DNA of 43,099 nucleotides from Gemmatimonadota bacterium (GTDB lineage: Bacteria; Gemmatimonadota; Gemmatimonadetes; Gemmatimonadales; Gemmatimonadaceae). The number at the start of each line of letters is the position of its first letter. The first letter of the stretch is position 1. The notes under the pieces were generated by a model. That model saw only the letters and a program-made list of their open reading frames with translations, was not told the origin of the DNA and searched no databases. The position numbers and the translations under genes are program-made. The stretch lies in NCBI GenBank assembly GCA_003223455.1, contig QHVE01000061.1, forward strand, positions 1 through 43,099, read 5' to 3'. Of this stretch, positions 11,107 to 39,493 are shown one piece after another.

Positions 11107-11130
11107 TGGGGTCGGACTCCTTGACCCCCT
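11107..11130. repeat. Solitary REP-like element between convergent genes
   Basis: GGGGTCGGACTCCTTGACCCC at 11108-11128 is a one-mismatch relative of the GGGGTCAGACTCCTT repeat seen beside the RAYT transposase at 26970-28000. Here its ends pair (GGGGTC with GACCCC, 9-nt loop). It fills nearly the whole gap between the stop codons of the FAD dehydrogenase and the TPR kinase and may act as a bidirectional transcript end. Confidence 0.7.
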
Positions 11131-24015: not shown

Positions 24016-24132
24016 GGGGTCAGACTGCTTCTGGGGTCAGGCTCCTTTTTTCAGCAAGTGGGGTCAGAGTCAACGGGGTCAGAGTCAAACGACTCTGACC
24101 CCGTTGACTCTGACCCCAACGACTCTGACCTC
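24016..24132. repeat. Cluster of seven REP-like units with a perfect 28-bp-arm palindrome
   Basis: Four forward units (GGGGTCAGACTGCTT 24016-24030, GGGGTCAGGCTCCTT 24033-24047, GGGGTCAGAGTC 24060-24071 and 24075-24086) are followed by three reverse units (GACTCTGACCCC 24091-24102 and 24106-24117, then a degenerate one at 24121-24132). Bases 24059-24086 and 24091-24118 are exact reverse complements around an AAAC loop. The cluster fills the gap between the broken lipoprotein gene and the convergent PD40 kinase. The units match those around the RAYT gene 3 kb away, which is the likely mobilising enzyme. Confidence 0.9.
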
Positions 24133-26969: not shown

Positions 26970-27041
26970 GGGGTCAGACTCCTTGAAAACCGATCCGGTT
27001 CGCATCCGTTCGACACCAAGGGGGTCAGACTCCTTGAAAAC
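26970..27041 (+). repeat. Two direct REP-like units upstream of the RAYT gene
   Basis: GGGGTCAGACTCCTTGAAAAC occurs at 26970-26990 and again at 27021-27041, 51 bp apart, both in the transposase's orientation. The second copy has an extra AAG before it, so CAAGG pairs with CCTTG as an imperfect palindrome. Apart from these, the 249-nt stretch 26854-27102 shows no gene. Confidence 0.9.
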
Positions 27042-27102
27042 AGCCACGACGCGCGACCGTTCGATGTCGCAGCCGCGTCGGCGCCGTCGCATCGATCCCC
27101 GC

Positions 27103-27792
27103 ATGCCACGTCCTCCGCGCACCGTGCTTCCCGGACACACACTCCATCTCATCCAGCGCGGCAACAACCGCAGCTCCTGTTTCGTCGACGACCAGGACCG
27201 CGCGTGCTACCTGGCGACGCTTCATCACTCCAGCGAGCGCGCGCGCTGTCCGATTCACGCGTACGTGCTGATGACGAACCACGTCCACCTGCTCGTCACC
27301 GCCAACGAGGCACGCGCGCCCGCCCGGATGATGCAGGCGCTGGGGCGAAATTACGTGCGCTATTTCAACGAGCGACATGGGCGCACCGGAACACTGTGGG
27401 AAGGTCGGTACCGCTCTGCGCTCATCGATTCGGAGCGCTACTTCCTGCAGTGCAGCCGATACGTCGAGACGAACCCGGTTCGCGCCGGACTGGTGCGCCG
27501 ACCCGGGGAGTACGCGTGGTCCAGCTTCAGGAGCAACGCGGCGGGTCGGCCGGACGAGCTCCTCCGCCGGCATCCCGCGTACCTGGCGCTCGGACGCCGG
27601 GAGTCGACTCGGCACGAAGCCTATCGCGCGCTCTTCGAGACTCCGCTCGATTCCCCCCTGCTCGACGCGATTCGCTGCGCGACCAACAAGGGGATGCCGC
27701 TCGGCTTCGACGACAGGCGGTTGGACCTGGAGCGCGCGTTGGGCCGGCCGCTGTCGCGAGGGAAGCACGGCGGGGACCGTCGCGGGGCGTGA
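27103..27792 (+). CDS. rayT: REP-associated tyrosine transposase (RAYT), Y1/HUH family
   Basis: 229-residue single-strand transposase of the IS200-like Y1 superfamily. Diagnostic features: PGHTLHLIQRGNNR N-terminal strand (9-23), the HUH metal motif HVH at 60-62 within YVLMTNHVHLLVT, the ALGRNYVRYFNERHGRTGTLWEGRYRS block (80-105), the catalytic Tyr120 in RYVETNPVRAGLV, and EYAWSSFRS (136-144). Such proteins nick and rejoin single-stranded hairpins and are thought to spread REP sequences without moving themselves. ATG 27103 best fits the conserved start; ATG 27064 adds a basic 13-residue extension. Flanking matches the REPtron pattern: two direct units upstream and an inverted pair downstream. 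The stop overlaps the first codon of a nuclease remnant by 2 nt (GTGATA), so the element abuts that relic directly. All visible catalytic residues are intact. Confidence 0.93.
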   Translation: MPRPPRTVLPGHTLHLIQRGNNRSSCFVDDQDRACYLATLHHSSERARCPIHAYVLMTNHVHLLVTANEARAPARMMQALGRNYVRYFNERHGRTGTLWEGRYRSALIDSERYFLQCSRYVETNPVRAGLVRRPGEYAWSSFRSNAAGRPDELLRRHPAYLALGRRESTRHEAYRALFETPLDSPLLDAIRCATNKGMPLGFDDRRLDLERALGRPLSRGKHGGDRRGA

Positions 27793-27954
27793 TATTCCGC
27801 GCGATCGAGCCCGGACGACGCATCGACTACGAGTTCGTCTTCGCACCGGTCACCGTGCTGTCACACGGCATGCTGCCCGACAGCTGAGACGGCCGGTTCC
27901 CGTCCGATCACCTGCCGGTGCTGGCCTCGCTGGAGACCTGCCGTCAGGCTCCTT
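27789..27954 (+). pseudogene. C-terminal remnant of an endonuclease/exonuclease/phosphatase (EEP) family gene
   Basis: Reading 27789 onward in one frame gives IFRAIEPGRRIDYEFVFAPVTVL, then MLPDS, a TGA at 27885-27887, then in the same frame DGRFPSDHLPVLASLE. The RIDY-F-V strand and the SDH(L)PV motif are the two final signatures of the EEP superfamily (DNase I/exonuclease III/sphingomyelinase-like; metal ligand Asp and catalytic His in SDH). The N-terminal catalytic part is absent, and a stop interrupts the fragment. The frame ends at TGA in the REP hairpin (27952-27954). This is a dead gene tail caught between the RAYT gene and its downstream repeat, pointing to an insertion or deletion at this spot. 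Confidence 0.75.
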
Positions 27955-27996
27955 GAAAAACGCTACATGCCATGAGCGTTTTTCAAGGAGTCTGAC
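27943..27996. repeat. Inverted REP pair (hairpin) downstream of the RAYT gene
   Basis: GTCAGGCTCCTTGAAAAACGCT (27943-27964) and its near-exact reverse complement (27975-27996, one mismatch) flank a 10-nt loop ACATGCCATG. The right arm extends into GACCCCCTTGAA, like the unit at 27020. It lies between the EEP remnant and the stop of the HhH lipoprotein gene and could end both convergent transcripts. Confidence 0.9.
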
Positions 27997-28024
27997 CCCC
28001 TTGAACCAGAAGAAGCTTGAAGCA

Positions 28025-38771: not shown

Positions 38772-39317
38772 TCACGCACGAAGCACTCCGCGGAATCCCC
38801 GTGCAGCGTAATACGACTCGGCGCCATTGTGATACACGAATACCTTGCCGTAGCGGCGGTCGCAGAACAGCGCCCCGCCCAGCGACCGGACATCCGCCGG
38901 CGTCTTGACCCAGCTGGACGTCTTGGTGTCGAACTCGCCGAGCTGCTGCAACTCTCGATACTCCGCTTCGGTCAACAGATCGATTCCCATCGCCGAAGCC
39001 ATGTCGACGGCGCTGTCCTTCGGCTTGTTCTCCTTCCGCGACTCCAGCGCTTCACGATCGTAGCATATGCTTCTGCGGCCGGCTGGACTCTGAGTCGAGC
39101 AATCGCAGAACACGACCTGCCCGGTCTTTTCGTCCCGGCCGATCACGTCCGGCTCGCCGCCGCTCGCCTCCATCGCGCGGAGCGCGTCGAGTGCATCGAT
39201 GTTGTCCACGACCCTGGCTTCCACATCGCCCCATGCGATCCCTTCGTGGCGATGCGTGTTCCGTACGAACCGCGCTTTCAATACGGCCAGGAGCTCGTCG
39301 CGCTCTGTCGACCTCAT
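38772..39317 (-). CDS. DUF4256 domain protein
   Basis: 181 residues from ATG 39317 (MRSTERDELLAVLKARF), which matches the usual family start; in-frame ATGs at 39428 and 39461 would add 37 or 48 poorly conserved residues. Family hallmarks are seen in order: a GEPDVIG strand, FCDCSTQSPAGRRSICYD, MGIDLLTEAEYRELQQLG, FDTKTSSWVKTP, LGGALFCDRR and VFVYHNGAESYYAARGFRG at the C-terminus. DUF4256 proteins are cytoplasmic, highly conserved in sequence and of unknown function; the conserved Cys, His, Tyr and Arg could form an active site, but no reaction is known. RBS weak. Downstream of the coiled-coil protein (176 nt) and upstream of the dienelactone hydrolase on the same strand. Confidence 0.85.
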   Translation of the reverse strand: MRSTERDELLAVLKARFVRNTHRHEGIAWGDVEARVVDNIDALDALRAMEASGGEPDVIGRDEKTGQVVFCDCSTQSPAGRRSICYDREALESRKENKPKDSAVDMASAMGIDLLTEAEYRELQQLGEFDTKTSSWVKTPADVRSLGGALFCDRRYGKVFVYHNGAESYYAARGFRGVLRA

Positions 39318-39493
39318 CGCTCTTTGCTCACCCGCGACACGTCGCCTTTCTTTCCCTGGAAAGTCTCCCGGTGCGAGGTGCACCGCATCGATCGTGTTCT
39401 TTGCTGGCTGCACGATGGCACTCTCCATTGAGATGAACCACACGAGACCCGAGCGGTACATGCCCCGAGTTCTTCAGACCCGGGCTACAGTCG

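Follow-up and report, generated by a model that had tools for sequence, protein, structure and literature searches.

The closest described relatives of the locus analyzed here are the TIRYT genes with their TIRtrons, whose flanks share the consensus GGGGWSAS (Di Nocera 2013, PMC3733652), and subclass 2.1 of the TnpAY1 transposases, which is equivalent to Bertels group 1 (Quentin 2018, PMC6006769). This subclass, one of the largest RAYT-like groups, is defined by a median length of 238 aa, the motifs NHVH, W[EQ] and Y[IV]xLNP-like, and a C-terminal extension (Table 1 of PMC6006769), and its link to REP-like repeats is missing in that study, where no REP-like structures were found for it. With regard to the classical pairs, TnpAREP has been shown to cleave single-stranded REPs beside a guide motif (PMC8266576). 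In the E. coli enzyme, the residues that read GTAG are Q95, E100, H101 and R104.

The stretch of DNA analyzed here (the window; 43,099 nucleotides) belongs to a Gemmatimonadota genome, G000, which comprises 4.96 Mb in 127 contigs and is 96% complete. A first-pass annotation had described within it a REP/RAYT locus with repeats of a distinct family. A RAYT-like HUH/Y1 enzyme amid amplified repeats was indeed found; the locus is, however, probably a TIRYT/TIRtron of TnpAY1 subclass 2.1 with an amplified tag population, and not a classical pair. The system is real, ordinary in kind and under-described, a widespread and little-studied cousin of REP/RAYT.

The transposase and its closest relatives

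The transposase is intact, as annotated, with catalytic residues and fold both kept. Its reading frame is uninterrupted up to a TGA at 27790-27792 and carries the catalytic motifs N59-H60-V61-H62 and Y120-V-E-T-N-P, of which the four residues of the first as well as Y120, N124 and P125 are invariant in a 96-row alignment of relatives. The protein was matched by Pfam Y1_Tnp (5.7e-14) and by NCBIfam NF047646 (REP_Tyr_transpos), the latter with 80.2 bits, barely over the cut-off of 80. An AlphaFold model built from 37 sequences (pLDDT 90.5) had 4er8, the TnpAREP-REP complex of E. coli, as its best PDB match (Z 16.1, rmsd 2.5 A over 158 residues), followed by IS608 as the second-ranked structural family (Z 9.4), and showed a C-terminal helical tail at 184-213. 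The gene is single-copy in G000.

The protein resembles subclass 2.1 in its length (229 aa vs the median of 238), in NHVH, W99-E100 and Y...NP (YVETNP, with T for L) and in its C-terminal extension. As in TIRYTs, the gene is flanked by inverted repeats that fit GGGGWSAS (GGGGTCAG at 26970 and 27021 on the plus strand and at 27987-27999 on the minus strand), and repeats elsewhere in the genome are likewise single, paired or grouped. Since this consensus has already been reported in such flanks (PMC3733652), repeats of this kind were known before, although the family is unlike the GTAG REPs and, to that extent, distinct as the first-pass annotation had claimed. The system differs from the described TIRYTs in a sharper tag (GGGGWCAGA, with 92 exact copies of GGGGTCAGA in G000), in the covarying hairpins that hold the GGGTCAGA type, and in compound elements with cargo. 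A search of the literature for the tag string gave a 10-base match in 57 papers; the 30 matches listed resembled chance hits (primers, plasmids etc.), none of them on RAYTs.

With the HUH motif and a single Tyr in Y...NP, the enzyme falls within TnpAY1 class 2, the RAYT superfamily. It shares with the classical RAYT/TnpAREP systems and their REPtrons and REPINs (E. coli, Stenotrophomonas, Pseudomonas) the fold, the arrangement of a single gene between inverted repeats, the dispersed paired repeats and their greater number in gene-bearing genomes. In contrast to classical REPs, the tag is longer, is conserved across phyla and occupies the loop of a variable stem or a position next to it, not the foot. 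The residues with which the E. coli enzyme reads GTAG are not kept: Q95, E100, H101 and R104 are aligned here with E100, S105, A106 and D109, respectively. A classical REPtron was ruled out, since the flanking repeats have no GT[AG]G foot. The HUH fold, the one catalytic Tyr and hairpin substrates in single-stranded DNA are shared with IS200/IS605 elements (IS608, ISDra2), from which the system differs by YxxxNP in place of YxxxQ, a single copy, the absence of TnpB and repeats dispersed without the gene; an IS200/IS605 insertion sequence was ruled out by the single gene copy together with Y...NP.

Tags in the window and across the genome

Features of the window are compiled in Table 1. Two direct repeats before the gene and an inverted pair with 22-bp arms behind it had been annotated; the former are exact copies of GGGGTCAGACTCC, and the latter is a hairpin with one mismatch (G.T) in its arms. 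In this hairpin, a degenerate plus-strand partner (GTCAGGCTCC), which has no GGGG head (GCCGTCAGGCTCC), and the minus-strand tag are linked by TTGAAAAACGCT/AGCGTTTTTCAA; it is placed between two convergent genes. The second upstream tag sits in a small CAAGG/CCTTG hairpin (27017-27036; -3.3 kcal/mol, z 0) that is unexceptional by itself, and the single tags 5' of the gene folded no better than shuffled sequence. The assignment of tags to hairpins relies on covariation between loci and not on folding energy. Neither Rfam matches nor terminator-like sites were found at the transposase locus (0 in both cases).

Table 1. Positions of the transposase gene, tags and hairpins in the window.
Feature	Position	Strand	Observation
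Single degenerate tag, GGGGTCGGACTCCTTGACCCC	11108..11128	+	One-mismatch match
Second tag cluster	24016..24132		4 plus tags then minus tags, directly 3' of kinase gene
Upstream tag 1, GGGGTCAGACTCC	26970..26982	+	Exact match; points to gene
Upstream tag 2, GGGGTCAGACTCC	27021..27033	+	Exact match; points to gene
Probable TIRYT/RAYT gene	27103..27792	+	229 aa, Y1 HUH transposase (H60, H62, Y120)
Downstream REPIN-like hairpin	27943..27996		Folded as DNA: -24.5 kcal/mol, z -9.2
Downstream tag, GGGGTCAGACTCC	27987..27999	-	Exact match; points to gene

When up to one mismatch was allowed, GGGGTCAGACTCC was found six times in the window against 0.09 expected, with one-mismatch copies at 24016, 24033 and 11108; both outlying places had been annotated as carrying the motif, and they are a cluster and one degenerate copy, respectively. 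The cluster mixes CTCC-type with GAGTCAAC-type tags, of which the latter are part of a long hairpin (24059-24118, z -11.6). The presence of both sub-types together (GGGGTCAGACTGC/GGGGTCAGGCTCC and GGGGTCAGAGTCAAC) suggests two copying waves, or two enzymes over time.

In G000 as a whole, the motif with at most one mismatch occurs at 84 sites, compared with 1 for the reversed pattern, so it is present elsewhere in the genome. By position, these sites group into about 33 clusters, in which head-to-tail tandem tags turn to minus-strand tags. The commonest period in these clusters is 19-20 bp, the tandem arrays of the genomes compared having periods of 12, 15 or 19-20 bp, and many arrays are degenerate. 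Nearest tags on opposite strands are arranged inward (plus then minus) in 17 cases and outward in 1. The repeat unit is an inverted pair resembling a REPIN, GGGGTCAGACTCCTTGAAAAACGC-N-GCGTTTTTCAAGGAGTCTGACCCC, represented both by the hairpin downstream of the gene and by the dispersed plus-then-minus pairs.

About 18 places in G000 (L174, L175, L176, L178, L183, L189 and others) carry an imperfect, MITE-like palindrome of 180 bp, GCATCAAGAACGGAGGGC...GCCCTCCGTTCTTGATGC. Around ten of them adjoin GGGGTCAGA tags, four with an identical junction, and at about five loci inward-facing tags on either side of the palindrome make a longer compound element. Since around eight copies are tagless, the palindrome is a separate element, caught by the tag system or landed in it.

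The tag beside related enzymes in other phyla

Named genomes were scanned with the family alignment and the best 80 loci were retained, so that the taxon range given here is a minimum. The matches listed were mostly from Gamma- and Betaproteobacteria, with others from Desulfobulbales, Mariprofundaceae, Nitrospirales and Gemmatimonadota. Among these matches, a motif-blind count of 8-mers in both flanks ranked GGGTCAGA first (present on both flanks in 31 of 78 loci; reversed control 0). GGGWCAGA within 400 bp of the gene and pointing to it was found at 68 of the same 78 listed loci, with a reversed control of 0; it faced the gene upstream in 61, downstream in 51 and on both sides in 44, and had the wrong orientation in only five upstream and five downstream cases. 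The conserved tag unit is GGG[T/A]CAGA, mostly preceded by G (the 9-base tag GGGGTCAGA), whereas CTCCTT is a right half specific to one lineage. The motif singled out in the first-pass annotation, GGGGTCAGACTCC, is amplified as a whole but conserved only in this 9-base part. That such a tag flanks relatives across phyla, nearly always gene-facing, is new here, as are the GGGTCAGA hairpins and the agreement of tag type with the protein tree described below.

The longest stem around GGGTCAGA had a mean of 4.20 over 60 distinct loci, compared with 3.09 (sd 0.14) when right flanks were permuted; none of 1000 permutations was as high, the z of this test being inflated because related loci share flanks. 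Examples of the paired arms are TTCAAGGG/CCCTTGAA, AAATCAAT/ATTGATTT and GAAAAGGG/CCCTTTTC, and the different stems in different lineages are compensating changes. In the same test, no flank pairing was observed for A-type tags (GGGGACAGACCACG; GGGACAGACCACG type, 26 loci), which indicates that structure is unnecessary in the family as a whole.

Mapped on a 96-protein tree, tag type requires 5 changes, compared with 22.3 when labels were shuffled, and the A-type enzymes form essentially one clade among the T types. Enzymes of the two types differ at residues 78, 82 and 196-198, with one main origin. As determinants of tag type these residues were dropped, because nearly all differences come from one clade, and they are a lead only on how the tag is read.

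Tag number, insertion sites and proposed mobilization

Among the 10 genomes of the genus, amplified tags were present only in G000 and G004, the only two with the enzyme: exact copies of GGGGTCAGA numbered 92 and 530, respectively, and 2-12 in the eight others. Across 179 family genomes, the enzyme was found in 22. Amplification, for which a genome had to hold 20 or more exact GGGGTCAGA copies and no fewer than twice as many as for the reversed control, was observed in 17 of these and in 8 of the 157 without the enzyme (Fisher p 9e-14, a value that overstates independence because the genomes are related); it was absent from five enzyme-bearing genomes. That amplification tracks the presence of the transposase is, together with the empty sites reported below for a REPIN pair and for the cassette, also new here. 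The eight amplified genomes without a detectable enzyme, which include the single-contig G043 and the 8-contig G054, gave no match to the family profile in a scan run without a positive control, although a separate protein search had recovered the same family; their tags are most likely relics after enzyme loss. As G043 is one contig, loss after amplification is likely there. In E. coli, REPINs are reported to occur, at lower numbers, in genomes without a RAYT gene as well (PMC8049555).

G004, which a matching contig identifies as the public MAG Gemmatimonadetes bacterium SH_69_11, holds the family maximum of tags, with 15-bp arrays (L052, L073); of its transposase copies, one has an in-frame TGA and the other is truncated by the contig end. 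In G054 (93% complete), where no family transposase was detected, 130 tags occur as compact pairs 16-17 bp apart and as 12-bp tandem arrays, possibly a relic population. The 52 tags of G082 (L205, L232), also without enzyme, are mostly single or unpaired and some have the form GGGGTCAGACCCCATTG; one copy seems to lie inside an ankyrin-like coding sequence, and these tags may belong to another repeat family.

Orthologous sites differ in tag content. An 85-bp REPIN segment lies between two genes in G043, and the same genes are about 7 bp apart and tagless in G063 and G064, which are 81-85% identical. The two tagless relatives favour gain rather than loss. No target-site duplication was seen at this insertion, which fits HUH enzymes yet gives no positive mark. 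Likewise, G065, G066 and G068 carry the enzyme cassette and its tags between two genes that adjoin in G043 without tags, about 23-30 bp separating the matches; this difference may be a gain or a loss, since REPINs of that family also occur in G043. These precise empty sites come from another genus of the family. For the C40 cluster of G000 (39195-39394), G006 and G007 have the flanking genes in the same order and lack GGGGTCAGA there, a comparison that is less precise because intergenic lengths differ. Around the transposase locus of the window, G002, G006 and G009 show no synteny 3' of the HHH gene, so that an empty site could not be read in them. Conservation of the copies at orthologous positions in all relatives, which the first-pass annotation had named as the case against itself, is contradicted by the empty sites; its suggestion that repeats may still be spreading thereby gains indirect support only.

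By analogy with TnpAREP, GGGGTCAGA is most likely bound in single-stranded DNA, with cleavage by Y120 next to it and joining of the freed end. The enzyme would recognise the strand-specific tag (GGGGTCAGACTCCTTGA in the G000 lineage), aided by a short hairpin that holds it in or beside the loop; Y120 would cut beside the tag and the freed end would be joined to a new site. In this way, the DNA between two inward-facing tags could be excised or copied and inserted at another single-stranded site. The smallest piece of this kind would be a REPIN-like inverted pair of about 40-85 bp; larger ones would carry cargo, either the transposase gene or the 180-bp palindrome. Against this reading stand the eight amplified genomes in which no enzyme was detected and the five enzyme-bearing genomes that lack amplification. 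G000 would then hold a single-copy enzyme with cognate ends, presumably still active, and genome-wide non-autonomous copies of those ends. More tentatively, and with rather less confidence than even, RAYT-like enzymes with GGGGWCAGA tags might form a third class by recognition. Such enzymes would read, in place of the GTAG foot, a fixed tag situated within or next to the loop of a stem that is free to vary, and would carry any DNA between inward tags (a bare REPIN, the gene, a MITE or a piece of a neighbouring gene), which would amount to general single-strand mobilisation over several phyla.

A domesticated state, in which the enzyme moves nothing and old tags are kept as hairpins with host roles (termination between convergent genes, DNA structure), would account for the one gene copy per genome, as in RAYTs in general, for the position of the downstream hairpin and for the many degenerate arrays. 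We consider it unlikely, given the presence and absence of tags at orthologous sites of relatives 81-90% identical, the lack of the family in 8 of the 10 genus genomes, the retention of all catalytic residues, and a locus with no terminator-like site and no Rfam family.

It is very improbable that the tags owe their spread to ordinary duplication, slippage during replication and recombination, with the transposase a passenger landed among them: head-to-tail arrays with the periods given above are typical of slippage, but the same gene-facing tag stands beside the enzyme family in Proteobacteria, Desulfobacterota, Nitrospirota and Gemmatimonadota, tag type tracks the enzyme tree, and the insertions of dispersed copies fall precisely between genes. 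Hardly credible is a reading of the tag clusters as ends of another MITE, the 180-bp palindrome, moved by another transposase. The shared junctions at palindrome places agree with it; most tag clusters, however, have no palindrome, the tagless palindrome copies speak against it, tag pairs alone suffice in G043 and G054, and the bare REPIN insertion in G043 represents a tag pair moved without the palindrome. With the 9-base tag, the rule for orientation and hairpin, the two tag types that follow the protein tree and the clean insertion sites, the substrate of subclass 2.1 becomes directly testable in vitro.

Finally, in G066 (L058, 1229-1313 and 3130-3224; also L163), a gene end of about 95 bp beside the left tag recurs 1.9 kb away. 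The duplicate, together with a tag, lies between outward-facing tags, which suggests that adjoining DNA was copied along with the tag, a possible case of host DNA capture.
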